From assembly GCA_947632515.1 (NCBI GenBank), contig CANRPO010000013.1, forward strand, positions 23,124 to 87,123: a DNA stretch of 64,000 nucleotides, given 5' to 3'. Both the position numbers and the translations under genes were made by a program. Under the pieces are notes generated by a model. That model was not told where the DNA came from. It saw only the letters and a program-made list of their open reading frames with translations, and ran no database searches. Shown here one piece after another: positions 4,437 to 61,999 of this stretch. The stretch's first letter is position 1. Each line of letters begins with the position of its first letter. This stretch comes from an uncultured Lachnospiraceae bacterium (GTDB lineage Bacteria > Bacillota > Clostridia > Lachnospirales > Lachnospiraceae).

Positions 4437-6629
4437 ATGCAGATAGTATGGCTATGGATTCATATATTTGGAGTGCTGGTGTCCTTCTTCCTTCTGGCCT
4501 CCATACTGAAACAGAAGGACTCGGCTTACAAGAACAGGCTGATCATGACGGTCAGCTGCTGTCTGATCGCGCTTGTCTCCCGCACGCTGTTTATCATGGC
4601 CGGGCCGGATATGCGGGAGCTTGTGGCGCTCGGCAAGACGGAATATCTGGGGAAATGTTTCGCCAATTTTCTGGCGCTGGCGTTCGTGCTTTCCTACTAT
4701 AAGATCCAGTGGCCGCGCAAGCTGATGCTCACGCTCTTCGGGATCAATCTGGCATTCTTCGGGATCATTATGACCTGCGATCATCACAGTCTTTACTACA
4801 CGTCCTATGAGATCGCCTCCACTTCCAACGGCAACATCCTTATCCTGGGCAAAGCGCCGCTCTATTATTTCTATATGCTGTTCTGTCTGGTGGAGATGAT
4901 ACTGTATCTGTATGTGTGCGTGAATCCCGCCTACCATCCGGTCAAGAAAGGGACGCGGACGATCCAGGGACTTCTGATCGCGGCGGGAGTCATACCGTTT
5001 TTTATGCTGCTGCTCTATCTGAGCGGCGTCACGGGCGGGTTTGACACGACGCCCCTCGGCATCTGGTGCTCTGTGCTCTGCCTCTTTACGGCGGTCAACC
5101 GGTACGGGCTGTTCGATCTGGTGCAGAACGCCAAGGAGGCGGTGATCGAGAGCATGGACGAGGGCATCATCGTGTCCGACAATCAGATGAAATTCCTCTA
5201 CGCGAACCCGGCCGCCTGCGAGCTGTTCCCGGATATGCGTCTGGGGGAGGGCAGAGTCAGCGAGTCCGAGATCCAGGCCATCTATGAGCAGACGGGCACG
5301 GTGATCGAGCTGAAAGACAAGAGTTATGAGATCAGAAACGCGGAGATCCGCGACGAGGTGCAGGTGCAGGGCTACATGCTGTCGGTCATCGACGTGACCG
5401 ACGTGATGGCGCAGGCGAGGCTTATGCGCGAGTTAAAGGAGAAGGCGGAGAACGCCTCCCGTGTCAAATCCGCGTTTCTGGCCAACATGAGCCACGAGAT
5501 CAGAACGCCGATGAACGCGATCTTAGGCATGACGGAGATCGCGCTCAGGGGGAAACTGGACGAGCAGCAGAGGGATGCCATCGAGCAGATCAAGTCCGCC
5601 AGCACGACGTTACTCACGATCATCAACGACATATTGGATTTCTCCAAGATGGAGTCGGGCAAACTGGAGATCGTGGAGGCGGACTATGACGTGAAAACGC
5701 TGGTGCAGGATGTGTACCATATCTTCTCGGGCAAGGTGGAGGAGAAGAATCTGCGGCTGGAGATCGGGCTGGATCAGACCATGCCCAAGGGACTGCACGG
5801 CGACGAGATCCGGCTGAAACAGGTGCTGATCAATCTGGTAAACAATGCGGTGAAATTTACGGAGACAGGCAGCATACAGCTGAACGTCGGCTATGAGAGA
5901 GCGGAGGACGGGATACTGCTCAAAGCGTCGGTACAGGATACGGGCATCGGCATCAAGCCGGAGGATCTGGAGCGCATCTTTAACTCCTTTGAACAGTCCG
6001 ACACATTCAGGAACCGCAAAAAGGAGGGGAGCGGTCTGGGTCTGGCGATCTCCCGGCAGCTCATCAGCCTGATGGGCGGCGACATCCATGTGGAGAGCGT
6101 CTATGGGCAGGGCAGCCGTTTCTTCTTCGAGGTGCCGCAGCGTGTCGTTGACGAAACGCCGTGCGGCGCCCTGGAGCTGAGCGAGAAACTGCAGCGCACG
6201 CAGCAGGCGGTCAGATATGAGGATTTCCGCGCGCCGGGGGCGAAGGTGCTTATCGTGGACGACAATCTTGTCAACAGGAAGGTGGCGGTGGGCCTGATGC
6301 GGCCCTTCGCCATGCAGGTGGACACCGCCAAGAGCGGTAAGGAGGCTCTCGAGATGATCCGGGAAAAAGAGTATCATCTGATCTTCATGGATCACATGAT
6401 GCCGGACATGGACGGCGTGGAGACGACCCATCTTATCCGGCAGATGGAGGGGGATTACTATCGGAACGTGCCGATCATCGCGCTGACGGCGAACGCGATC
6501 AACGGCGTCAAGGAGATCTTTTTGAAGGAGGGCATGAACGATTTTATCCCGAAACCCATCAACATGAAGGAGCTGAGCGAGAAGATCCTCCGGTGGCTGC
6601 CCTTTGAATTGTTGGAAAATGCGGAATGA
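4437..6629 (+). CDS. Hybrid sensor histidine kinase/response regulator with N-terminal 7TM-like region and PAS
   Basis: 730 aa; NMSHEIRTPMNAILG (H-box), NLVNNAVKFTETG (N-box), DTGIGI, GSGLGLAISRQL, LIVDDNLVNRKVA...MDHMMPDMDG (REC); all catalytic motifs intact. Confidence 0.92.
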   Translation: MQIVWLWIHIFGVLVSFFLLASILKQKDSAYKNRLIMTVSCCLIALVSRTLFIMAGPDMRELVALGKTEYLGKCFANFLALAFVLSYYKIQWPRKLMLTLFGINLAFFGIIMTCDHHSLYYTSYEIASTSNGNILILGKAPLYYFYMLFCLVEMILYLYVCVNPAYHPVKKGTRTIQGLLIAAGVIPFFMLLLYLSGVTGGFDTTPLGIWCSVLCLFTAVNRYGLFDLVQNAKEAVIESMDEGIIVSDNQMKFLYANPAACELFPDMRLGEGRVSESEIQAIYEQTGTVIELKDKSYEIRNAEIRDEVQVQGYMLSVIDVTDVMAQARLMRELKEKAENASRVKSAFLANMSHEIRTPMNAILGMTEIALRGKLDEQQRDAIEQIKSASTTLLTIINDILDFSKMESGKLEIVEADYDVKTLVQDVYHIFSGKVEEKNLRLEIGLDQTMPKGLHGDEIRLKQVLINLVNNAVKFTETGSIQLNVGYERAEDGILLKASVQDTGIGIKPEDLERIFNSFEQSDTFRNRKKEGSGLGLAISRQLISLMGGDIHVESVYGQGSRFFFEVPQRVVDETPCGALELSEKLQRTQQAVRYEDFRAPGAKVLIVDDNLVNRKVAVGLMRPFAMQVDTAKSGKEALEMIREKEYHLIFMDHMMPDMDGVETTHLIRQMEGDYYRNVPIIALTANAINGVKEIFLKEGMNDFIPKPINMKELSEKILRWLPFELLENAE

Positions 6630-42298: not shown

Positions 42299-45235
42299 AT
42301 GGGAGTAAAGATGGGAAAAGACCACAGAGAGAACAGAGAGACGGCCGCAGCGGAGAATCTGCAGGCAGAGGAAACGCGGCGGCATGAGGCGGCAGAGACG
42401 GCAGAGAGGACGCAGGGCGCAGAGAGCGCCGACCGGGCGGAGGCCGAAGGGCGGACGGCAGACGAGGAGCAGACGGCAAGGAAAAAGGGAAAAAAGCGGG
42501 CGGGGAAAAGAAATGGAAGAGCCTTACAGAAATTCCTCGGTCTGATGCAGCACGTCGCGCTTGCGGTTTTGGTCATCGCAGTCTGTGTCGTGGCGGGCTA
42601 TTCCCGCATTCGCATTGATATGTTCCAATCGACCTTCACGACCGGACTGTACATGTATGAGCACGACCGCGAAGACCGCTATGAGGATTCCAATATGTTC
42701 AGGAATCTGTTTGGATATGTGTTGGCGGACGTGGTGCGCCATGGCGTGGTGAGCGGGCAGCTGGAGACGGACGGGCGGTTTGACGGATCTAAGGCGATCG
42801 ATGTGACAGCCTACAACTACCGTCAGACGGAGCTGCCGGCACAGTACGTGACCGCAGAATACTATCTGGAGGATCTGTTAAAGTGGCAGAGCTACGGATT
42901 CGAGACCAAGAGCGAGACGATGACGGCGGAGCAGGCGGCCGCGTTTCTGGCGCCGAGGACCAGATTGACCTTTGCCGGCTCAGACAACATCACGGACTCC
43001 GAAATGGCAGAGTATATATATGGAACGGCGCAGGATGACAGCGATGGGTTTCAGGCGGATGTGTCGGGCAATCAGCTGTGGGTCTATATGGGCGACGGCA
43101 AAGAGGCTCCGGGAGGCGAAGGGACAGAGGAGACGACGGATGCGACTGCTGTTGCGACGGATGCGATCGCTGTTGCGGACGAACCCTTGGCGGGGGTTGC
43201 GTATGAGGCGCTCGGGTACGACGGGGAATTGGAGAGGAATAACATTCTCGTCAACCGCTATCAGACAACAGAGGGCAAAAATCTGGAGGATTACGTATCA
43301 AATTGGGATCTGTACTATGAACTGTGCAACCAGGTGAAGACAGCGGCCAACGGTCTGGCATACAACTACAGGGAATATCTGAACTTCAACGATTTCTATG
43401 CGGCGAACAAAACAAATATGCGCTATATGATCGTGCAGGAGACGGGCGCGCAGCGGCAGATCTTTACGAATCTGACGGCGGCGGACGCCGATAATCCGGC
43501 CTTTGCGTATGCGGCAGAGCTGGCGGAGACAGGCGTCCTGCGCACGGAGGCTGCGAAGAATGCCCGGTATATCTATTACGATCCGTCGGATATGATCTAT
43601 GAAACCAACACGAGAATTGACGAAGAGATAGTAAGACAGACCGTTCAGGAATATGACTACGCTTATCCGGAGACGACGAAGATCTGGGTCGGCGTGGACA
43701 CGGCCTATCCGGTCTCGGACGGTTTCAGACAGGGATATGACGTTTTCAGCAACTATTCGCCGCATCTGTGGCAGAGCCTCGCCTTGGCGCTCGTGGCAGG
43801 GATCCTGTATCTGCTCATCTGGTTTTACCTGACCTGCGTCACGGGCCGGGACAGAGACGGGGAAGGACATAAATGCATCAGACTGCAGCCCTTTGACAAG
43901 GCGGTTCCCACGGAGGGCGCGCTGGTTCTGGCCTGCGGCGCTGTGGCGGTGGGGATCGGCGTGCTGGTCATGCTGACAGAATTTATGGGCGTAGACCCCA
44001 CCAGTCTCTTGTCTTTGTCGAACGCGCTGTTGGAATGGCCGCGGCTGTTTATCGGCCTGCTGGCGGTCTATGTGTTCGCAGCCGACTGCATCGCCATGTT
44101 CTTCTATTACAGTCTGGTCAGGAGGATCAAGGCGCGGACGCTCTGGAAAAACAGCTATCTCAACAGACTGTTCGGGTATGCGGCGCGGTTTGGATGGAAG
44201 GTGTACGACAACAGCGACATCGTGCTGCGCACCTGGCTGCCGTATGCGGCGTTCGTGCTGTTTAACATAGCCCTGCTGATGTTTGCCTTTGCGCATGACA
44301 ACAACGGCTTTCTGTGCCTGGTTACGCTGTTTGCGCTGCTGGCGGTGGATCTCTTCGTGGGGATCGTACTTTTCCGCAATGCGAAGGAGCAGCAGAAGAT
44401 CGTGGAGGGGATCGAGACAATCGCGGGCGGACAGCTGGAGCATCAGGTAGATACCTCCGGTCTGCACGGAGATAACCTGACGCTGGCCAACTCCGTCAAC
44501 AGCATCGGCAAGGGCATCCAGGAGGCGGTGGAGATCAGCATGAAGGACGAGCGCATGAAAGCGGATCTGATCACCAACGTGTCCCACGACATCAAGACGC
44601 CGCTCACTTCGATCATCAACTATGTGGATCTCATCAAGAGAGAGCAGGTGGACAATGAAAAGATCCGAAGCTACATCAACGTGCTGGACGAGAAATCACA
44701 GCGGCTGAAACAGCTCACCGACGATCTGGTGGAGGCGAGCAAGATCTCCTCCGGCAACATCAGCCTTCAATTTGAGAAGATCGATCTGACGGAGCTGATG
44801 AACCAGACCTTGGGAGAGTTTTCGGAGAAGTTTGAGAGAAGGAGACTCACCGTCGTCATGAACATCAATGTGAAGGGCGCTGTGATCGAGGCGGACAGTC
44901 GGAGAATATGGCGCGTGATCGAGAATCTCTTCAACAATATCTTCAAGTATGCGATGGAGGGGACGAGAGTCTATCTGGCGATAGACAGAGTGCCCGACAA
45001 GGCCGGATATATCGCGCTGTCCGTGAAGAATATCTCGGAGACGGCGCTGAACTGCGACCCCGATGAACTGACGGAGCGGTTTATCCGGGGAGACGAGTCG
45101 AGAACCACGGAGGGGAGCGGTCTGGGATTGTCCATCGCCAAGAATCTGACGGAGGCGCAGAAGGGCACCTTTGAGATAAAACTTGACGGGGATCTGTTCA
45201 AAGTGATCCTGACCTTCCCGCTGGCGGAGCCGTAG
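42299..45235 (+). CDS. Sensor histidine kinase (978 aa) with charged N-terminus and large extracytoplasmic domain
   Basis: NVSHDIKTPLTSIINYVDLI, VIENLFNNIFKYAMEGTRV, GDESRTTEGSGLGLSIAKNL; downstream of its likely partner RR. Confidence 0.93.
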   Translation: MGVKMGKDHRENRETAAAENLQAEETRRHEAAETAERTQGAESADRAEAEGRTADEEQTARKKGKKRAGKRNGRALQKFLGLMQHVALAVLVIAVCVVAGYSRIRIDMFQSTFTTGLYMYEHDREDRYEDSNMFRNLFGYVLADVVRHGVVSGQLETDGRFDGSKAIDVTAYNYRQTELPAQYVTAEYYLEDLLKWQSYGFETKSETMTAEQAAAFLAPRTRLTFAGSDNITDSEMAEYIYGTAQDDSDGFQADVSGNQLWVYMGDGKEAPGGEGTEETTDATAVATDAIAVADEPLAGVAYEALGYDGELERNNILVNRYQTTEGKNLEDYVSNWDLYYELCNQVKTAANGLAYNYREYLNFNDFYAANKTNMRYMIVQETGAQRQIFTNLTAADADNPAFAYAAELAETGVLRTEAAKNARYIYYDPSDMIYETNTRIDEEIVRQTVQEYDYAYPETTKIWVGVDTAYPVSDGFRQGYDVFSNYSPHLWQSLALALVAGILYLLIWFYLTCVTGRDRDGEGHKCIRLQPFDKAVPTEGALVLACGAVAVGIGVLVMLTEFMGVDPTSLLSLSNALLEWPRLFIGLLAVYVFAADCIAMFFYYSLVRRIKARTLWKNSYLNRLFGYAARFGWKVYDNSDIVLRTWLPYAAFVLFNIALLMFAFAHDNNGFLCLVTLFALLAVDLFVGIVLFRNAKEQQKIVEGIETIAGGQLEHQVDTSGLHGDNLTLANSVNSIGKGIQEAVEISMKDERMKADLITNVSHDIKTPLTSIINYVDLIKREQVDNEKIRSYINVLDEKSQRLKQLTDDLVEASKISSGNISLQFEKIDLTELMNQTLGEFSEKFERRRLTVVMNINVKGAVIEADSRRIWRVIENLFNNIFKYAMEGTRVYLAIDRVPDKAGYIALSVKNISETALNCDPDELTERFIRGDESRTTEGSGLGLSIAKNLTEAQKGTFEIKLDGDLFKVILTFPLAEP

Positions 45236-52119: not shown

Positions 52120-52944
52120 ATGGGCGAACAGAATCAGAGTTTCAACAGCACCCCGGACTACGTTGCATCCGAGCAGCTTTTGGCGAGCGTCAATGTGGCC
52201 ATCGCATTGCAGAAACCGCTTCTCGTGAAGGGGGAACCCGGAACGGGCAAGACCATGCTGGCGCAGGCGGTGGCCAATTCCCTCGGGAAGAAACTGATCA
52301 TATGGAACATTAAATCCACGACGAAGGCACAGGACGGCCTGTATATGTACGATACGATCCAGCGTCTCTACGACGGACAGTTCGGTGAGGAAGGCGTGGA
52401 CGACATCGCGCACTATATCAAGCTGGGCAAGCTGGGAGAGGCTTTCGAGTCCGAGGAGCAGGTGATCCTGCTGATCGACGAGATCGACAAGGCCGATCTG
52501 GAGTTCCCAAACGACCTTCTATGGGAACTCGATCAGATGGAGTTCTATATCCATGAGACGAAGAGGACGGTCAAGGCGAAACACCGCCCCATCGTGATCA
52601 TCACTTCCAATGCGGAGAAAGAACTGCCGGACGCCTTTCTCAGAAGGTGCATATTCCACTATATCGACTTTCCGGATCAGGAGCTGATGGAGGAGATCGT
52701 GAGGACGCACTATCCCAATGTGGAGGAAAAGCTGCTGCACGACGCGATGGAGGTGTTCTACTGGATTCGGTCGATGAAGGATATTCGCAAGAAACCGAGC
52801 ACTTCGGAGCTGATCGACTGGATCAACGCCCTGCAGATCGGCGGCATCCCCACCGACAGGCTGCGGCAGGAACTTCCCTTTATCGGCGTGGTGGTCAAGA
52901 AGGACGAGGATCTGGAGACGGTAAGGAGCAAAAGGAATCTGTAA
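52120..52944 (+). CDS. MoxR-family AAA ATPase
   Basis: VKGEPGTGKTMLAQAVANSLG (Walker A), VILLIDEIDKADLEFPNDLLWELDQMEF (Walker B). Confidence 0.92.
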   Translation: MGEQNQSFNSTPDYVASEQLLASVNVAIALQKPLLVKGEPGTGKTMLAQAVANSLGKKLIIWNIKSTTKAQDGLYMYDTIQRLYDGQFGEEGVDDIAHYIKLGKLGEAFESEEQVILLIDEIDKADLEFPNDLLWELDQMEFYIHETKRTVKAKHRPIVIITSNAEKELPDAFLRRCIFHYIDFPDQELMEEIVRTHYPNVEEKLLHDAMEVFYWIRSMKDIRKKPSTSELIDWINALQIGGIPTDRLRQELPFIGVVVKKDEDLETVRSKRNL

Positions 52945-52953
52945 GAGGGCGCT

Positions 52954-54150
52954 ATGTTCAGTAAATTTTTTTATACCTTAAAGGAAAAGGGGCTCGACGT
53001 CTCGCTCAGCGAGTGGCTGACATTGCAGGACGCTCTGGACCGGGGGCTGTGCCACAGCAGCCTGACGGAGTTTTACTATGTGTCCCGCATGATCCTCGTG
53101 AAGTCGGAGACGGAGTACGACAAGTTCGACATGGCGTTCGACGAGGTGTTCAAGGGAATACAGTCGGAGAACGAGATCACGAAGAACATGATGCGGTGGC
53201 TGGATAAGCCGGAGATGCAGGAGGTCTTCGAGGAGCTGCGCCATGAGATGAATCAGGAAGTGATCAACATGGACAGCGAGGACGTGGAGAACAAGTTTAA
53301 GGACAGACTGCGGGACCAGGACGAGGAACACAACGGCGGCAGCTACTGGATCGGCACGATGGGGAAGACTTCTTTTGGCAACATGGGCGGCAATATGGGC
53401 GGCATCCGGGTGGGCGGCACGACGGGGTATCAGTCGGCCTTCCAGGTTGTCGGCGCGAGGAAGTACCGCGATTTCCGCAATGACAAGGTGCTGGACAACA
53501 GACAGTTCCAGGTGGCGCTCAGAAAGCTGCGCCAGTTCTCCGCAAGGCTCGACATCCCCAAGACGGAGCTTGACATAGACGGCACCATCGACGCCACCTG
53601 CAACAACGGAGGCTGTCTGCAGATCGTGATGGAGAAACCGCGCAAGAACGCGGTGAAACTTCTTTTGCTGATGGATTCCGGAGGCACGATGATCCCGTAC
53701 ACCACGCTTTTGAACGAGCTGTTCCACTCCGTACACAAATCCAATCACTACAAGGACGTCAAGACCTATTTCTTCCATAATTGTATTTACTCTAATCTGT
53801 ACAATACGCCGGAGTGCGAGAACGGGGACTGGATCGAGACGGAATGGATGTTCCGCAATCTGGACAGCGATTACAAGGTGATCATCGTGGGGGACGCGGC
53901 GATGGCGCCGGAGGAGCTGTACTCCACCACGGGCAATTACAGAGGGCCTAACGGCGGTCTGTCCGGCATGGACTGGCTGTTATTGATGAAACGCCACTAT
54001 AAGAAGATCGTGTGGCTGAATCCGAAGATGGCGCCCGGACATGCGCCGTGGCGGGAGGCGGAGACGGCGATCAAGGGGTTGTTTCCCATGTATAAGCTGA
54101 CGGTGGACGGATTGAACCAGGCGATGAACAAGCTGATGACGAACCGATGA
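52954..54150 (+). CDS. vWA-like (CoxE-type) protein partner of MoxR ATPase
   Basis: KLLLLMDSGGTMIPYTTLLNELFHSVHKSNHYKDVKTYFFHNCIYSNLY...YKVIIVGDAAMAPEEL; altered MIDAS-like motif. Confidence 0.85.
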   Translation: MFSKFFYTLKEKGLDVSLSEWLTLQDALDRGLCHSSLTEFYYVSRMILVKSETEYDKFDMAFDEVFKGIQSENEITKNMMRWLDKPEMQEVFEELRHEMNQEVINMDSEDVENKFKDRLRDQDEEHNGGSYWIGTMGKTSFGNMGGNMGGIRVGGTTGYQSAFQVVGARKYRDFRNDKVLDNRQFQVALRKLRQFSARLDIPKTELDIDGTIDATCNNGGCLQIVMEKPRKNAVKLLLLMDSGGTMIPYTTLLNELFHSVHKSNHYKDVKTYFFHNCIYSNLYNTPECENGDWIETEWMFRNLDSDYKVIIVGDAAMAPEELYSTTGNYRGPNGGLSGMDWLLLMKRHYKKIVWLNPKMAPGHAPWREAETAIKGLFPMYKLTVDGLNQAMNKLMTNR

Positions 54151-54196
54151 ACGCGGACGTTTGCAGACAAACACAGAGTAAGAGAGGGAGAAGAGT

Positions 54197-55261
54197 ATGT
54201 ATCGAGTGATGATCGTAGACGACAACATGGCCAATTTGATCATGGCGAGAAAGACACTGGAGGAGGAGTACGAAGTGATCCCGGTCTCTTCCGGCATCTC
54301 GGCGTTAGAGTGCTTAAACGATATGCCGGAGCTGCCGGATCTGGTGCTGCTTGACGTGGATATGCCTAATGTCAACGGCTTTCAGGTGATCTCGGAGATG
54401 AAGAATATTCCCAAACTGATGAATATTCCGATCATTTTTCTGACCGCACAGGACGACGACACCACGGAGCTTGAGAGTTATAATCTGGGCGCCATGGATT
54501 ATATCAGAAAGCCCTACACCGCCAATCTTTTGAAGAAACGGGTGGATATTCAGATCCAGCTCTTGACGCAGAGGAGAAAGCTGGCGGAGATGAACCATTC
54601 CCTGAACAACCTTGTGCAGGAGAAAAACAAGAAGAATCTGGAATTGCAATATTCCATTGTGGCGATGTTTGTGGACCTGATGACCAAGCGCGACGGTTTC
54701 AGCGGGGATCACGCGCGGCGCGTGGAACAGTACATGGATGTGCTCGTCAGCGCGCTGGTGAGGAGCGGCAAGTGCGGTTTGAGTGCGGACGACGGCTCCA
54801 CGATCTGTTTCGCGTCCAAGATCCACGACATCGGCAAGCTGTGTATCGCCGACCAGTATATCAATGATGCGCGCAAGGGAGGAGAAAGCGAATTTGAGCA
54901 CGAGGCATTGAAAACCCACACAACGCTGGGCGCCGACATGCTCTCCAAGGTGACGCAGCTGAGCGCGGGCGAGAACAATTTCATGAACTATGCCTACAAT
55001 ATGTGCCGCAGCCATCATGAGAGGTGGGACGGCAAGGGCTATCCCGACAGGCTGGAGGGGGAGAAGATTCCGCTGGAGGCCAGGATACTGGCGGTGGTCA
55101 ACACCTATGACAATCTGCGCAGCATCGGACAGGGAGGCAAGCAGTTCAGCCACCAGGAGGCGATGATGAAGATCAAATTTATGAAGTTTACCTGTTTTGA
55201 CCCGAACGTGGTGGACGTCTTTCTCTCTGTGGAGAATGACGTCAGAAATGTGGCGGGTTGA
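54197..55261 (+). CDS. Response regulator with HD-GYP domain
   Basis: REC: MIVDDNMANLIMARKTL...LVLLDVDMPNVNGF; HD-GYP: ASKIHDIGKLCIADQYIN, HHERWDGKGYPDRLEGEKIPLEARILAVVNTYDNL. Confidence 0.93.
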   Translation: MYRVMIVDDNMANLIMARKTLEEEYEVIPVSSGISALECLNDMPELPDLVLLDVDMPNVNGFQVISEMKNIPKLMNIPIIFLTAQDDDTTELESYNLGAMDYIRKPYTANLLKKRVDIQIQLLTQRRKLAEMNHSLNNLVQEKNKKNLELQYSIVAMFVDLMTKRDGFSGDHARRVEQYMDVLVSALVRSGKCGLSADDGSTICFASKIHDIGKLCIADQYINDARKGGESEFEHEALKTHTTLGADMLSKVTQLSAGENNFMNYAYNMCRSHHERWDGKGYPDRLEGEKIPLEARILAVVNTYDNLRSIGQGGKQFSHQEAMMKIKFMKFTCFDPNVVDVFLSVENDVRNVAG

Positions 55262-55285
55262 GGAAAAGAGAAGGGATAACCGAGT

Positions 55286-57400
55286 ATGACGGCTAAACAG
55301 CGACTGGATAAATATTTGGATATTGAACTGCCGGAGCAGCAGCTGTTGTTCCGCGTGTCGATGGTGCTCAGCCTGATCGCGTGTTTTTTTATGATGCTTT
55401 TTACCCTGATCCTGCGTATGCGCGTCTATGTGCCGCTCATGCTGTTTGGCGGCATCGTTCTGACGGTCGCGGGGATGTGGGCGGAGCGCCGGTTCGATCA
55501 TGTGGAGATCATGGCGGCGGGCTATCTCTTTGTGATGTTCTTTGTCCTGATCCCGATCATGTCCACCTTTGTCCCCTATGCGCTGTATGATTTTCCGATC
55601 TATTTTCTGACGGGGATCATCTTTGTGGCGGTACTGTTCAAGGGACAGTGGGCGGCGCTTTTTATTCTGGCCGACTCCCTGCTCGCCATCGGCTGCATGT
55701 ATGGGATGAGGGTGCGGGTCAACCGTTTTTCGCCCATGAGCAATGATTACAGCGCCATACTTTTAGCCAGAATCCTGGCGGCGCTTATCCTGTTAGGCCT
55801 TGTCAGCGGCGTGTTGACATCTTTCAGGACGAGGATTCTTCGCCGGGAGATCGCGAAGAGAGTCGAGATGGAAAAGCAGGCGGAACAGCTTAACTATGCG
55901 CAAAATATGTTCCTCGTCAACATGTCCCATGAGATCAGGACGCCGTTAAACGCGATTCTGGGCGTGTCGGAGCTTTTGCTCGAACAGACCGCGGACGAAC
56001 GCATCAAGGACAGCGCCTTTCATATCACCAATTCCAGCAAGGCTCTTCTGTCAATTACCAACGAGATCATGGATTTCTCAAAGTTTGACAATGTGGATCC
56101 TGTGATTCAGAACAAACCGTACTATGTGGGCGACATCGCCGACGAGCTGATCAATCTGATCTCCGTGCGGTTCGCGGATTATAATTTGGAGTTCTTTACG
56201 GATATTGCGCCGGATCTGCCGGAACAGATGATCGGCGATACGGCGCTGGTGCGCCAAGTCATGCTCAATATCATCACGGGCGTTGTGAAATCCATGCAGA
56301 GCGGACAGATGCATCTGCGGCTGTGCAGGGAGGAAACCGACGAGAGGCAGATCTGCCTGTTGGCCGAGATCAGGGCCATGGGCATGTTCCACTATTCCTA
56401 CGAGGAAATGCTGAAAAAAAAGGATAGTGCGGAGATGGAAGAGGAGGACGGCAACGGCGCGGTTTCGCCGATCCTGCACCGCCTCGTGCAGTTTTTGGGC
56501 GGCAGTATGCACATGGAGGAGACGGAGCATGAGCGCGTCTACTCTTTCGATCTGCGCCAAGGGTATGTGTCGCAGAAGAATCTGACCGATCTGACAGCTG
56601 CTAAGCATGCCAACGTGCTTTTCTATGAGAATACGACGATGCAGAGCAGCATGTTCGCCAAGGCGCTCCATGACATGTCGGTGTCTTTCTGTCAGGCGAT
56701 GTCGGATGAGATCTTCCTGGAGGAGTGCGCGAAGAAGAGCTATACGCATATCATGATCGCGGCCGAGCGCTATGTGTCGCTTAAGGAGCGGCTCGAAGAC
56801 ATTCTGCCTCCGCAGTCGCTGGTGTTAGTCGGGTCGGACATTATCACTTTTGACGATCCGCTGGTCAAAATGACTTTTGCAAGGCCTGTCAACTGTCTGA
56901 ATCTGGACGCGTTGTTTGAAGGCAGACAGAACAGTATGATCAGACGGCGGGAGTATACGGGCAGATTCCTCTGTCCCGACGCGCGCATTATGGTGGTGGA
57001 CGACAACATTGTGAATCTGGAGGTCGCCACCAGTATGCTGCAGCGGTATCAGGCGCAGGTCACGGTGGCGACCGGCGGCCGGGAGTGTCTCAGACTCTTG
57101 GGAGAGACGCCGGCAGACCTGATCCTGTTAGATTATATGATGCCGGAGATGGACGGTATCGACACGCTGAAGAACATTCGGGCGACGGGCGATCCGAAAT
57201 TGGAGACTGTGCCTGTAGTCGCGCTCACCGCCAACGCGGTCAGCGGGGCGCGGGAAATGTTTCTGGGCGCGGGATTCGACGAGTACATATCCAAGCCGAT
57301 CGAGCGCGATAAATTCGAGAAGGTGCTGAAACTTTGCCTGCCGGAAGAGTTGATCGTCTATGTCTCGGACAAGGAGGATCAGCCCGCGCAGACTGCCTGA
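55286..57400 (+). CDS. Hybrid histidine kinase homologue with degenerate ATPase domain and intact receiver
   Basis: VNMSHEIRTPLNAILGVSELL (H-box present); N-box-equivalent LNIITGVVKSM lacks the canonical Asn; DxGxG and GxGLGL not recognisable; REC IMVVDDNIVNLEVA...LLDYMMPEMDG intact. Confidence 0.85.
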   Translation: MTAKQRLDKYLDIELPEQQLLFRVSMVLSLIACFFMMLFTLILRMRVYVPLMLFGGIVLTVAGMWAERRFDHVEIMAAGYLFVMFFVLIPIMSTFVPYALYDFPIYFLTGIIFVAVLFKGQWAALFILADSLLAIGCMYGMRVRVNRFSPMSNDYSAILLARILAALILLGLVSGVLTSFRTRILRREIAKRVEMEKQAEQLNYAQNMFLVNMSHEIRTPLNAILGVSELLLEQTADERIKDSAFHITNSSKALLSITNEIMDFSKFDNVDPVIQNKPYYVGDIADELINLISVRFADYNLEFFTDIAPDLPEQMIGDTALVRQVMLNIITGVVKSMQSGQMHLRLCREETDERQICLLAEIRAMGMFHYSYEEMLKKKDSAEMEEEDGNGAVSPILHRLVQFLGGSMHMEETEHERVYSFDLRQGYVSQKNLTDLTAAKHANVLFYENTTMQSSMFAKALHDMSVSFCQAMSDEIFLEECAKKSYTHIMIAAERYVSLKERLEDILPPQSLVLVGSDIITFDDPLVKMTFARPVNCLNLDALFEGRQNSMIRRREYTGRFLCPDARIMVVDDNIVNLEVATSMLQRYQAQVTVATGGRECLRLLGETPADLILLDYMMPEMDGIDTLKNIRATGDPKLETVPVVALTANAVSGAREMFLGAGFDEYISKPIERDKFEKVLKLCLPEELIVYVSDKEDQPAQTA

Positions 57401-57425
57401 CGCAAATGATGGGGACGGAGAGATT

Positions 57426-60188
57426 ATGGCGTATAAACCGGGTAATTTGTTTGAAAAAAGACAGAGTGAGATGGAGCTTGGCGAGTTTAATCTGATCGTC
57501 CTGCTCACCGCCATTGTCATTGAAAATATTGTATTGCTGCCGATCGCTGTCTTCGCGGGGGATGCGGGTAAGCAGGGCATCTCTATGGCGATCGTCGCGC
57601 TGAGCGCCGCGCTGCTTCTGCTCTTGGATCTGCGCACGGGCAGGGCTAAGCTGACGGCGGTCCTCGCGCTGGTCATACTGAATGGCATCGCGATCCCGGT
57701 GGTGCTGCGGCCGGGCTATGTGATGTACGGTATGGCGGTCATGTGGTTTGTCTTAAGCATGCTCATCATCTACTGCGTTCTGGACGGGGCGCTGTTCGGC
57801 GTCGCCTTGGCTTTGTTCCTGTTCGAGCAGTGCTGTCTGTACAGTTATATTTTCTATCCGGCAAACGGCGGGAAATTCCGCGCGGAGCAGGTGTTTCATT
57901 TCACAGATCTGACGATCTGTTTTGTGAGTACCACGCTCCTTCTTGTGGCGCTTATCTTTTCACAGAAACAATTCTATTGCCAGCAGCAGCGCAAGATCGC
58001 CAAGAGCAGCCGCAAGATCGAAAATGTCGGCGCGGCGAAACGACAATTCCTGGAGAATATCTCCTACGAGATCAGGACGCCGATGAATTCGATCATCAGC
58101 CTGTCGGAGATCATGATGAAGGGAGATCAGGAAGGCGGGACGAAGAGCGCGGTGAACACCGTCAGGCAGGCGGCCTACGACCTTCTGACGATCATCGACG
58201 ACGTGCTTACCTACGCGAAACTTGACGCGGGAGATATGCGCCTGATCGAAGAGACGTACAGCTCCGGGGAGCTGCTGCAGGGGATCCTGCGCACGATCTC
58301 TGAGGAGATCCGGAAGAAACGCTTGTATCTGGACGTCAAATTCGACGGCAATATCCCCGGCCGGCTGTACGGGGACAGTGTGACGGTCAGACAGATCTTT
58401 CTCTATCTGCTCTTTATCTCCATCGACTTTACGACGAGAGGGCGCGTGATACTGGAGATAGACTGCGACAGGGACGAGGAGACGGGGGAGGCGGTCTTTC
58501 GCTGCACCGTTGCGGACACGGGGCGCGGACTGTCGCAGATCGATATACAGTCGCTTTTTGGCATGTATGACACCTACGATTCCAGACAGTCCAGCAATTT
58601 AAAAGGCATCGGCCTTAAATTCACGATCTGCAAAGAGCTGTTAGCCATGATGCAGGGCAGTATCAAAGTAGAAAGTATTGAGAATGTGGGACTCTCCACG
58701 ACTTTTACATTCCGGCAGAAGATCGTGGACGGTTCGCCGATGGTGTGTCTGGAGGAAGAACAAAAACCGAGCGTGCTCATCTATGCGGAGGATGATTTCA
58801 GCGTGGCCAAGTGGCAGGACATCATGGATGTATTCGGCGTGCGTCCAAGGTTCTGTTCCACCTACTACGGCTTTGACAAGGAGATACAGGATAAGCAGTT
58901 TGACTTTATTTTCCTGACGGACGCCGTCTACGAAAATCTGTCGAACATCATCTCGCTCTATCAGTGCGAAGAGTACACCTATGTCCTGTCTGACTTTGAC
59001 GCGGTATATGGGAATTTTGACAAATGCCGCCCGATCCACAGGCCCCTGTCCTGTCTGACCGTGGCGGAGGTGCTGAACCACCGTTGGAAGAAGGAGGATT
59101 ACAGGCAGAGGGCGGAGGAGACATTCACGGCAAAGAACGCCCGTGTTTTGGTTGTGGACGATAATGCGGTGAACCTGAAAGTGGCCGCCGGCATTTTCAG
59201 CAAGTACGGCATCGACATTGCCGTGGCAACCTGCGGCGAGGACGGTATCAGGAAGATCGAGGAGGAAGAGTACGATCTGGTACTGATGGATATGGTCATG
59301 CCGGACATGGACGGCGGCGAGGTGCTGCAGGCAATTCGCGCCAAGGAGGACAAATACTACAAAAAATTGCCGTTCGTGGCACTGACGGCGCAGAACGGCG
59401 CCACCGTGCGCGAGGAGATGTTGAAACTCGGATTTCAGGAATATCTGGCGAAACCGATCAAACGGCGTTATCTGGAGAAGTGCCTGTTAGAGTTTTTGCC
59501 GGAGGAGCTGATCGAGCACGTTAATGCCAAGGAGGGCGATGGCGCAAAGGGCGGCGATCAGGCGTCTGCGGGAACGGCTCAGAGTGTGCAGAGCGGCCTG
59601 AATACCGACAAGGGACTTCTGAATATCGGTTTCAATCAGGACGCCTATGCCGCGATCCTGAATACCTACTACACGGAGGGCGTCAAGTATCTGGATCTTC
59701 TGCCGAATCTTCTGGAGGCGGGGGACATTCAGCTCTTCACCACCGACGTCCACGGCATCAAGAGCTCCAGCGCGAGCATCGGCGCGATGGAAGTCTCCGC
59801 GCTGTTTAAGGAGCTGGAGTTTGACGGCAAGGCGGGGGATGTGGAGGCCATCAACCGGAAGTTTAACGGCTATCTGGAAAAGTTCAAGGATATTCTGGCG
59901 GAGGTTAAGAACTATCTGACCGGTATCGGCAAATTCAGCGAGGAGGAAGTACAGGACGACCTCGCGGACAAGGAAGTCGAGACGCTGACCGCTGAAATGC
60001 TGCAGAATCTCAAGACCGAACTCGACAAGATGAACATGAAGGTGACGGACGAGCTCGTGCCCGATCTCGCGGCCAGGAATTTCGGCGCGGAGATGAACGC
60101 GTCCATGAAGAAGTTAAAGGAGGCGTACGACATGTTCGACTTCCATCAGGTGAAGGCGATTTTGGGCGAGATGATGGAGAAGATGTGA
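57426..60188 (+). CDS. Hybrid histidine kinase homologue lacking the phospho-His, with pseudo-receiver, receiver and Hpt domains
   Basis: ENISYEIRTPMNSIISLSEIM (Tyr for His); VADTGRGLS and KGIGLKFTI present; REC VLVVDDNAVNLKVA...LMDMVMPDMDG; Hpt VHGIKSSSASIGA. Confidence 0.85.
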   Translation: MAYKPGNLFEKRQSEMELGEFNLIVLLTAIVIENIVLLPIAVFAGDAGKQGISMAIVALSAALLLLLDLRTGRAKLTAVLALVILNGIAIPVVLRPGYVMYGMAVMWFVLSMLIIYCVLDGALFGVALALFLFEQCCLYSYIFYPANGGKFRAEQVFHFTDLTICFVSTTLLLVALIFSQKQFYCQQQRKIAKSSRKIENVGAAKRQFLENISYEIRTPMNSIISLSEIMMKGDQEGGTKSAVNTVRQAAYDLLTIIDDVLTYAKLDAGDMRLIEETYSSGELLQGILRTISEEIRKKRLYLDVKFDGNIPGRLYGDSVTVRQIFLYLLFISIDFTTRGRVILEIDCDRDEETGEAVFRCTVADTGRGLSQIDIQSLFGMYDTYDSRQSSNLKGIGLKFTICKELLAMMQGSIKVESIENVGLSTTFTFRQKIVDGSPMVCLEEEQKPSVLIYAEDDFSVAKWQDIMDVFGVRPRFCSTYYGFDKEIQDKQFDFIFLTDAVYENLSNIISLYQCEEYTYVLSDFDAVYGNFDKCRPIHRPLSCLTVAEVLNHRWKKEDYRQRAEETFTAKNARVLVVDDNAVNLKVAAGIFSKYGIDIAVATCGEDGIRKIEEEEYDLVLMDMVMPDMDGGEVLQAIRAKEDKYYKKLPFVALTAQNGATVREEMLKLGFQEYLAKPIKRRYLEKCLLEFLPEELIEHVNAKEGDGAKGGDQASAGTAQSVQSGLNTDKGLLNIGFNQDAYAAILNTYYTEGVKYLDLLPNLLEAGDIQLFTTDVHGIKSSSASIGAMEVSALFKELEFDGKAGDVEAINRKFNGYLEKFKDILAEVKNYLTGIGKFSEEEVQDDLADKEVETLTAEMLQNLKTELDKMNMKVTDELVPDLAARNFGAEMNASMKKLKEAYDMFDFHQVKAILGEMMEKM

Positions 60189-60267: not shown

Positions 60268-60310
60268 TAAAAAATGACCGACAGCTTCACGGCAGCCGGT
60301 CATTTTTTGC
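60268..60310 (+). terminator. Rho-independent terminator upstream of hipBA
   Basis: AAAAATGACCG...CGGTCATTTTT. Confidence 0.8.
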
Positions 60311-60411: not shown

Positions 60412-60744
60412 ATGCCTAAAAAATCAGTTGTGTTATTGCCGGAAACAATGGAAATACTTGAACAGATGGGAATGCAGATCAAATACGCCAGACTTAGGAG
60501 AAAAATTTCTTCTGCGCTTGCAGCCGAAAGAGCAGGGATCAGCAGAGCGACACTGGTTGCCATTGAAAAGGGAGCGCCGTCTGTCGCCATGGGATGTTAT
60601 GCCGCGGTGTTGCATGCGCTGAACTATATGGACAGGGATCTGCTGCTTGTGGCTAAGGATGACGAGCTGGGACGCAAATTACAGGATTTGGATCTGCCGA
60701 TCAGAAAACGGGTGGCCGGGAAAGGAAAAGCGCGTGGGAACTGA
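60412..60744 (+). CDS. hipB: HipB-like XRE-family antitoxin/repressor
   Basis: IKYARLRRKISSALAAERAGISRATLVAIEKGAPSVAMGCYAAVLHALNYMDRDLLLVAKDDELGRKLQ. Confidence 0.85.
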   Translation: MPKKSVVLLPETMEILEQMGMQIKYARLRRKISSALAAERAGISRATLVAIEKGAPSVAMGCYAAVLHALNYMDRDLLLVAKDDELGRKLQDLDLPIRKRVAGKGKARGN

Positions 60745-61999
60745 AAAGAAAATATATGTGTTTGCAGATTTTCTGCCTTTTCATAATGAATTGGTGGGTA
60801 TCGTTTATGTGACGCAGACAAAGGGCAGAGAATTGTATGCTTTTGCATATGACGAGGGCTGGCTTGGGAAGACAGATATGATACTGGATCCTGATCTGCG
60901 GCTGTACGGGGGAAGACAGTATACAGACAGTGACAGGGATATTTTCGGCGTCTTTGCAGATTCCTGCCCGGATCGATGGGGACGGCGACTGATGAATCGC
61001 AGAGAAGAGTTTCGGGCAAAGGAATTGGGAGAAAAGCCGAAGAAACTTTTGGAGAGCGACTATCTTTTGGGCGTATATGACGAGGCGCGCATGGGAGGAC
61101 TTCGCTTTAAGACGGAACCGGAAGGCGCGTTTTTATCGAATGACAGTGAATTTTCCGTTCCGCCATGGGCGTCTCTGCGGGAGTTGGAGCAGGCGGTGGT
61201 TTCCTTTGAAAATGATGATGGCAGGCTGGATGAAAAGTGGCTGAGACAGCTGCTGGCCCCCGGTTCTTCTCTGGGCGGAGCAAGACCGAAAGCATCGGTG
61301 ATGGCTCCGGACGGTACACTTTGGATTGCAAAATTTCCGTCCAAATACGATGATTTTAATTCGGGAGCCTGGGAGATGACAGTGCATGATCTGGCTGTAA
61401 GGTGCGGACTCAATGTGCCCGAAGCAAAGGCGGAGAGGCTTTCCAAGCTGGGAACGACATTTCTGGTTAAGAGATTTGATCGGGCTGGAAAGCAGCGGAT
61501 TCATTTTGCCTCAGCCATGACGATGCTCGGCAAAAAAGATGGAGCGAACGCCTCGGATGGGAGCAGTTATCTTGAAATCGCATCATTTTTAAAAGCAAAC
61601 GGAGCGAGACCGAAACGTGATCTGGCTGAATTGTGGAAACGGATCGTATTCAGCATGGCAGTATCCAATACAGACGATCATTTCAGAAATCATGGTTTTA
61701 TTTTATCTGATCAAGGTTGGGAATTAGCGCCGCTTTATGATGTGAATCCGGACATATACGGAGAGTATCTGTCGTTGAATGTGGATGCTAAAGAGGCTGG
61801 GATCGATTTTGCATTAGCGATAAACGCCGCGCCGTATTATGGGGTGTGCAGGGAAGAAGCGGCGAAGGCTGTGGATGCGGTTAAGAATATTGTGAAAAAT
61901 AACTGGAAAAGCCTGGCCCAAAAGTATGGCATCAGCCGTGGCGAGATAGACAGAATGGCGCCTGCGTTTATGATTTGCGAAGACTCGTCCCGTAAATAG
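60734..61999 (+). CDS. hipA: HipA-family toxin Ser/Thr kinase
   Basis: LGGARPKASVMAPDGTLWIAKFPSKYDDFNSGAWEMTVHDLAVRCGLNVPEAK, FLVKRFDR, SNTDDHFRNHGFILSDQGWELAPLYDVNP; GTG start overlaps hipB. Confidence 0.92.
   Translation: MGTEKKIYVFADFLPFHNELVGIVYVTQTKGRELYAFAYDEGWLGKTDMILDPDLRLYGGRQYTDSDRDIFGVFADSCPDRWGRRLMNRREEFRAKELGEKPKKLLESDYLLGVYDEARMGGLRFKTEPEGAFLSNDSEFSVPPWASLRELEQAVVSFENDDGRLDEKWLRQLLAPGSSLGGARPKASVMAPDGTLWIAKFPSKYDDFNSGAWEMTVHDLAVRCGLNVPEAKAERLSKLGTTFLVKRFDRAGKQRIHFASAMTMLGKKDGANASDGSSYLEIASFLKANGARPKRDLAELWKRIVFSMAVSNTDDHFRNHGFILSDQGWELAPLYDVNPDIYGEYLSLNVDAKEAGIDFALAINAAPYYGVCREEAAKAVDAVKNIVKNNWKSLAQKYGISRGEIDRMAPAFMICEDSSRK

Follow-up and report, generated by a model that had tools for sequence, protein, structure and literature searches.

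Two adjacent hybrid histidine kinases with complementary motif losses, a probable phosphorelay pair in an uncultured Lachnospiraceae bacterium

Two adjacent genes of an uncultured Lachnospiraceae genome, here called A and B, encode hybrid histidine kinase-like proteins that have lost complementary parts of the catalytic core. Since the invariant acceptor histidine lies on A, which has lost its ATP site, and a conserved ATP-binding-like domain lies on the adjacent B, the two proteins probably form a pair that shares a single relay. The domain-level label "hybrid histidine kinase", which applies to both, hides that neither seems able to autophosphorylate. The parts and the principle are already known (split kinase, RcsC/D-like relay, pseudokinase partner), and no description of the A/B pair was found in the literature. 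The feature for which no earlier description was found is a family of neighbouring hybrid kinase pairs whose two members show complementary losses of catalytic parts, incurred twice and with intermediates still present.

The window analyzed is a stretch of 64,000 nucleotides of this genome. The genes at 52120-60188 all run in one direction with small gaps between them, and they are followed by a probable terminator:

52120-52944, plus strand: MoxR-type AAA+ ATPase gene, the first of the cluster (Pfam AAA_5/AAA)
52954-54150, plus strand: VWA (CoxE-like) gene, partner of MoxR (VWA_CoxE 24.3 bits, slightly below the cut-off of 26.4)
54197-55261, plus strand: REC-HD-GYP response regulator (Pfam HD_5 and Response_reg; aligned with PA4781 and orthologues)
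55286-57400, plus strand: gene A, hybrid kinase-like protein of 704 aa (membrane region, DHp, degenerate CA, pseudoreceiver, receiver)
57426-60188, plus strand: gene B, protein of 920 aa (membrane region, DHp, CA-like domain, pseudoreceiver, receiver, Hpt)
60268-60309, plus strand: probable intrinsic terminator 3' of B, a hairpin followed by a T run, at the end of the transcription unit

A sequence-only reading of this DNA had placed the two kinase frames at 55286-57400 and 57426-60188, and both were found there. The terminator hairpin has a stability of -17.8 kcal/mol (z -4.0), equalled in 0 of 200 shuffles, and it is absent from the list given by a simple consensus scan. The order MoxR, VWA, REC-HD-GYP, A, B is found in nearly all of 22 related loci, a few of which are cut by contig ends. 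Just 3' of the cluster, an HTH gene (60412-60744) overlaps a HipA-like gene (60647-61999; HipA_C, E 3e-48), likely a module of the hipBA toxin-antitoxin type.

Protein A has about six predicted membrane helices followed by the DHp, a CA-like region, a pseudoreceiver and a receiver. Pfam detects HisKA (E 2e-14) and the receiver (2e-23), and gives no HATPase_c match in A even at E 0.1. Its key features are the following:

55928-55930, plus strand: His215 of A, phospho-acceptor, invariant in 37/37 proteins
56123-56575, plus strand: degenerate CA (Bergerat-fold) region of A, residues 280-430, ATP-site motifs lost, fold predicted to be retained
57131-57133, plus strand: receiver Asp616 of A, invariant in 37/37 proteins

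The H-box had been read as kept and the DxGxG and GxGLGL motifs as missing, and both statements are confirmed. The N-box (LNIITGVVKSM) had been said to lack the canonical Asn, which holds for the second, Mg-binding and catalytic residue, replaced by Gly, but not for the first, which is present. A has the H-box His of a canonical HisKA kinase but not the combination of His with N-box Asn, DxGxG and GxGxG in a single protein. His215, Glu216, Thr219 and Asp616 are unchanging across the 37 A proteins, with an intact HExxT motif. Pfam finds HisKA in all 37 and HATPase_c in 14, with 0 of 23 in the window's clade, so A there has what characterizes one half of a split kinase, in which the acceptor His is present and a functioning ATP site is not. 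Judging from the motif table, the 14 positives are the ten canonical A proteins together with L053, L055, L058 and L111. In the AlphaFold model of A, the CA region folds as a Bergerat-type domain, with pLDDT mostly 80-93 except for a disordered stretch near residues 383-393, although the underlying alignment includes canonical relatives and may bias the model toward this fold. Judged by its sequence, A's own ATP site is dead.

Protein B has the domain layout of A, extended by an Hpt domain and a helical tail. Pfam detects HisKA, HATPase_c (5e-14), the receiver and the Hpt (1e-5; 25.8 bits, above the cut-off of 24.6). The corresponding features are:

58065-58067, plus strand: Tyr214 (TAC) of B at the phospho-His position, Y, D, Q, H, N, G, L or M in orthologues
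58263-58730, plus strand: CA-like domain of B, residues 280-435, N-box Asn lost (Y327, I331), DTGRG (D364) kept
59289-59291, plus strand: receiver Asp622 of B, Asn in L053, L055 and L058
59751-59753, plus strand: Hpt His776 of B, present in every aligned Hpt-bearing orthologue

The Tyr in place of the phospho-His, the altered N-box and the retained DTGRG are as previously read, and B therefore does not have the canonical H-box His. Both Asn are gone from the N-box (LYLLFISIDF). The KGIGL motif, reported as kept, retains two of the three G2 glycines, but the third is replaced (KGIGLK). The ATP-binding domain of B is thus recognized as HATPase_c in 33/33 proteins and keeps DTGxG, yet its N-box Asn is lost and its G2 box altered. 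In 32/33 the DxGxG box is intact, L112 having Glu in place of Asp. The Mg-coordinating Asn of the N-box is Ile or Val in 21/21 proteins of the window's clade, and the third G2 glycine there is Lys. Beside the altered G2 box, Tyr384, Asp385 and Ser386 (YDS) and Lys393 are invariant in 33/33; no claim of a wholly new ATP lid is made, since Asp-Ser is also found near the same place in ordinary hybrid kinases. Conservation of the Tyr and of the lost motifs in orthologues had been put forward as a check: the losses are kept in the 22 loci, but the Tyr itself varies, with eight different residues at that position, and a special role for Tyr214 was rejected. Glu215 (33/33) and Thr218 (30/33) are kept beside it. 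The claims of intact receivers in both proteins and of a plausible Hpt His in B (His776) were borne out across the window's clade.

The models of both A and B match the kinase cores of ShkA, GacS and RetS, including the RetS-GacS complex 7n0e, and DivL (4q20) is among the structural as well as the sequence matches of B. ShkA of Caulobacter differs from A and B in being a single complete kinase, and it is controlled by c-di-GMP through its pseudoreceiver; RetS of Pseudomonas aeruginosa modulates GacS and is encoded elsewhere from it. ShkA (PDB 6qrj) shares the DHp-CA-pseudoreceiver-receiver layout and is the top structural match of both models. RetS and GacS, the best match along with ShkA, are hybrid kinases that form a DHp-DHp heterodimer (PMC5992135, PDB 7n0e), but GacS is a complete kinase.

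The motif losses are not a general property of the genome, as the sequence-only reading had argued from the intact hybrid kinase at 4437-6629. This kinase is fully canonical, and so are the other hybrid kinases read from the genome (loci L115-L128), save that L127 has a substitution at one G2 glycine. Among those with intact motifs is a second tandem kinase pair, which adjoins an HD-GYP gene on contig C53. The kinase at 42299-45235 is of a different family, which has its own form of the G1 box.

Degenerate A proteins, and the matching losses in B, are found in the 22 related Lachnospiraceae loci, which come from more than twenty gut bacteria, with identities of 43-75% for A and 54-84% for B. 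Gene A is always directly upstream of B, and 31 of 32 junctions measure between -29 and +29 bp, often overlapping. Clear members of the kinase-pair family occur in about 8 of 397 Lachnospiraceae genomes. More distant pairs have a canonical A with intact motifs (L056, L057, L059-L061, L068, L071, L076, L112 and L114); their B proteins have the DHp His, have mostly lost the N-box Asn and carry Glu or Lys at the third G2 glycine.

Constraint on the two CA regions differs between these groups. In the window's clade, the mean pairwise identity of A is 0.44 (0.40-0.49) in the CA region vs 0.72 in the DHp, and that of B is 0.72 (0.68-0.77) in the CA region vs 0.76 in the DHp. In the canonical-A pairs the order is reversed, with 0.53 for the CA of A and 0.41 for that of B. 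Comparison of close pairs gave dN well below dS in all domains of A and B, including the CA of A, as expected for purifying selection. Since the same losses recur in 22 loci with conserved residues and open frames and with dN below dS, the degenerate state is old and kept and is no artefact.

Both the A tree and the B tree place L053, L055 and L058 as sister to the canonical L061, apart from the group formed by L111 and the window's clade; L111, L112 and L114 lie on long branches. From this arrangement we infer that the ATP site of A was lost at least twice, and the canonical motifs in all other kinases argue for loss and not gain. The His of B is present in all eight canonical-A pairs of the B alignment (lost in 0/8). 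It was lost only in the two lineages in which A has lost its ATP site, where it became Tyr, Asp, Gln, Asn, Gly, Leu or Met. Two loci, L046 and L047, are exceptions in that they keep it despite the loss of A's ATP site. The overall pattern is as expected if the His of B was once the substrate of A's ATP domain. Parsimony gives three changes for this His, or four if regain is barred, and the correlated-loss test has two or three independent pairs only, with a sign test p of 0.5 and no statistical power.

The group of L053, L055 and L058 has Asn622 in place of the B receiver Asp, while the receiver Asp of A, the Hpt His of B and the Mg-binding N-box Asn of B are kept. Since B has lost both its DHp His and its receiver Asp there, exactly one His(A)-Asp(A)-His(B) chain is left across the two proteins. 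The kinase split is, by its motifs, cleaner in this group because B keeps the N-box Asn. The family holds both pairs with one complete kinase and pairs with none, a natural series for studying the evolution of heteromeric kinases and for asking whether the ATP domain of a histidine kinase is able to function without the N-box Asn.

The sequence-only reading had suggested that the two proteins may act as a pair. This agrees with the adjacency at 31 of 32 junctions, with the complementary losses, with the tracking of B His loss and A ATP-site loss, and with RetS-GacS being among the closest folds. The reading that we favor, tentatively as a complete chain, is an obligate RcsC/RcsD-like hetero-pair with a shared relay in which the His of A is phosphorylated in trans by B. 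Proteins A and B would be produced together and dimerize via their DHp helices, and His215 of A would be the sole phospho-accepting DHp histidine of the pair. The CA-like domain of B, with its adenine-binding DxGxG box kept, would then act on His215 in trans. From His215 the phosphoryl group would pass to Asp616 of A, then to His776 of the B Hpt and probably to the REC-HD-GYP regulator of the same operon, as residue conservation and gene order suggest. The Glu and Thr of the HExxT motif of A, and of its His-less version in B, may permit the reverse, phosphatase activity.

The trans step is the weakest, since B has neither the N-box Asn nor one of the G2 glycines. In EnvZ-type kinases the second N-box Asn is needed for Mg-ATP. 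In the window's clade, where Ile or Val replaces it in 21/21 proteins and the third G2 glycine has become Lys, it is doubtful that B carries out ATP chemistry. Given pairing, phosphorylation of A by the B domain can be put at even chances or slightly better. It is favored by the shift in constraint together with two precedents. FasB and FasC of group A Streptococcus are adjacent kinase-like proteins that reportedly form a heterodimer, in which the kinase domain of one is dispensable and its His is the proposed target of the other; FasB was proposed to phosphorylate FasC from two-hybrid and mutant data (PMC12675982). In the part of that source consulted, the partner kinase domain is proposed to be active and loss of its N-box is not described, nor is a receiver or Hpt on FasB or FasC, and the output is a DNA-binding regulator. 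In Rhodobacter sphaeroides, CheA4 acts on CheA3, with the acceptor His and the ATP site on separate proteins of one complex, but these are of the CheA type with whole domains removed, whereas A and B keep their domains and lose motifs (PMC3591291). The same 2013 survey found HATPase missing from 3.66% of HisKA proteins (PMC3591291). That the CA of B, without any N-box Asn and with the invariant YDS...K, is a kinase domain of a new type whose only substrate is the His of A, so that neither protein acts alone, is a more speculative extension and rather unlikely.

The RcsC/RcsD system resembles A and B in having two membrane hybrid-kinase-like proteins, one with the DHp His and the receiver Asp and the other with an inactive ATPase-like domain and the Hpt (PMC7418988). 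The ATPase domain of RcsD, inactive, is less conserved than that of RcsC (PMC7418988). As in RcsD, the Hpt of our pair is on the partner with the degenerate kinase core, B, and pairs such as L060, L061 and L071 show the RcsC/RcsD division of labor. In the window's clade, however, the RcsC-like A is also without an active ATP site, and B retains a receiver. NCBIfam RcsD matches B at 2.2e-24, with a score of 85.5 vs a cut-off of 634; the scores are far below the cut-offs, and A and B are not orthologues of RcsC and RcsD.

It is quite possible, instead, that both proteins are true pseudokinases and use no ATP, forming a hub for phosphotransfer and phosphatase activity. His215 of A would be phosphorylated by a third kinase, or phosphate would run in reverse via the B Hpt to the A receiver and be hydrolyzed with help from the DHp Glu and Thr, a scheme near that of RetS and near the earlier proposal. 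The loss of the catalytic N-box Asn from both A and B in the window's clade points this way, as does the retention of Glu215 and Thr218 in B beside a position that tolerates eight residues. RetS has no kinase activity, takes phosphate from GacS and acts as a GacS phosphatase (PMC5992135), and the pseudokinase DivL keeps its boxes yet has neither kinase nor phosphatase activity (PMC4211667). In HrrS/ChrS, a CA-dead kinase is able to heterodimerize with a live one and to alter the output (PMC9491836). About thirty other HisKA kinases of the genome are possible donors, but the cluster itself encodes no partner kinase. The better conservation of the B CA is also left unexplained, unless it binds nucleotide allosterically. 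The strong conservation of this domain (0.72 vs 0.44 for A) suggests a retained function, which may be exerted on the His of A, and the earlier proposal that phosphate is received from elsewhere is unsupported in that form.

Signalling mainly through shape and not phosphate is improbable. Here, like DivL with DivK~P, B would bind nucleotide or a phosphorylated regulator and alter the A-B complex. DivL of Caulobacter has Tyr at the same place as B, is a weak binder of ATP and a sensor of DivK~P (PMC4211667), and it is among the matches of B, as noted above. However, DivL keeps all its ATP-site boxes (N, G1, F and G2), lacks both receiver and Hpt, and shares its Tyr with nearly every homologue (PMC4211667), whereas B has lost the N-box, has an altered G2 and varies freely at this residue. 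The invariant His215 and Asp616 of A and His776 of B further suggest real phosphotransfer.

Decay of the genes, with motif losses devoid of meaning, is hardly credible, and both it and sequencing error, which the sequence-only reading had named as a possible refutation, are rejected for the clade: the CA of A evolves faster than A's other cytoplasmic domains and the A gene is apparently split in genome G037, but the frames are open in 22 related loci with the same degenerate A, every domain of the close pairs has a dN far smaller than its dS, and no variation is seen at His215, Asp616 or the Hpt His. In G037 (L113, 5238-9254, minus strand), the A homologue seems split into separate frames and B is without the Hpt, which appears to be local decay or an assembly error.

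The likely output of the favored hetero-pair relay, the REC-HD-GYP protein (54197-55261), has an intact receiver, and Asn (VVNTYDN) stands where PmGH has the metal-binding D305. This Asn is found in all pair-associated HD-GYP orthologues except L040 and L049. The D305A mutation of PmGH lowered the activity without abolishing it (PMC4159591; PmGH ligand list). The output activity is accordingly uncertain on sequence grounds; weak hydrolysis and c-di-GMP sensing are both candidates. With 16 GGDEF domains encoded in the genome, use of c-di-GMP is probable. The suggestion that the pair feeds the adjacent HD-GYP regulator is thus plausible, but it is qualified by the metal-ligand Asn and by the absence of the HD-GYP gene beside the pairs L053, L055, L058 and L061. 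Since this gene is missing beside several pairs, the final target of the relay may differ between them.

MoxR is 87-97% identical across the loci of the window's clade, and VWA 92-98% in many loci. Of 397 Lachnospiraceae genomes, 76 have the MoxR-VWA pair; it also occurs without the kinases, most of the loci read having other genes 3' of it, and is thus no defining partner of A and B. The kinase pairs L057, L060, L071, L076 and L114 are located elsewhere, before a pseudouridine synthase and/or a DNA ligase gene where tested. A functional tie of MoxR-VWA to the kinase pair is weakened by both observations. Searches with NCBIfam and PADLOC gave only partial or far-below-cut-off matches for MoxR, with MadB and MadC, likewise far below the cut-offs, among the NCBIfam hits for MoxR-VWA, and PADLOC gave no match for VWA.

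Other kinase tandems were seen in other genomes. At L062-L067, L069, L075, L100 and L106, another Lachnospiraceae hybrid-kinase tandem, with intact motifs where read, stands with a REC-HD-GYP gene whose product has Cys-Asp (PLCDLGN) or Ser-Asp (PLSDLGN) in place of His-Asp; this HD-GYP domain is probably inactive, to judge from the motif. In a Lachnospiraceae MAG from cattle omasum, the hybrid kinase L096:1575-4625 has Tyr at the phospho-His position and a largely intact ATP site, as in DivL, and adjoins a near-canonical hybrid kinase. In a Clostridiales MAG (L073:5416-11560), a canonical hybrid kinase is followed by one that keeps the His and has no HATPase_c match, possibly another complementary pair.
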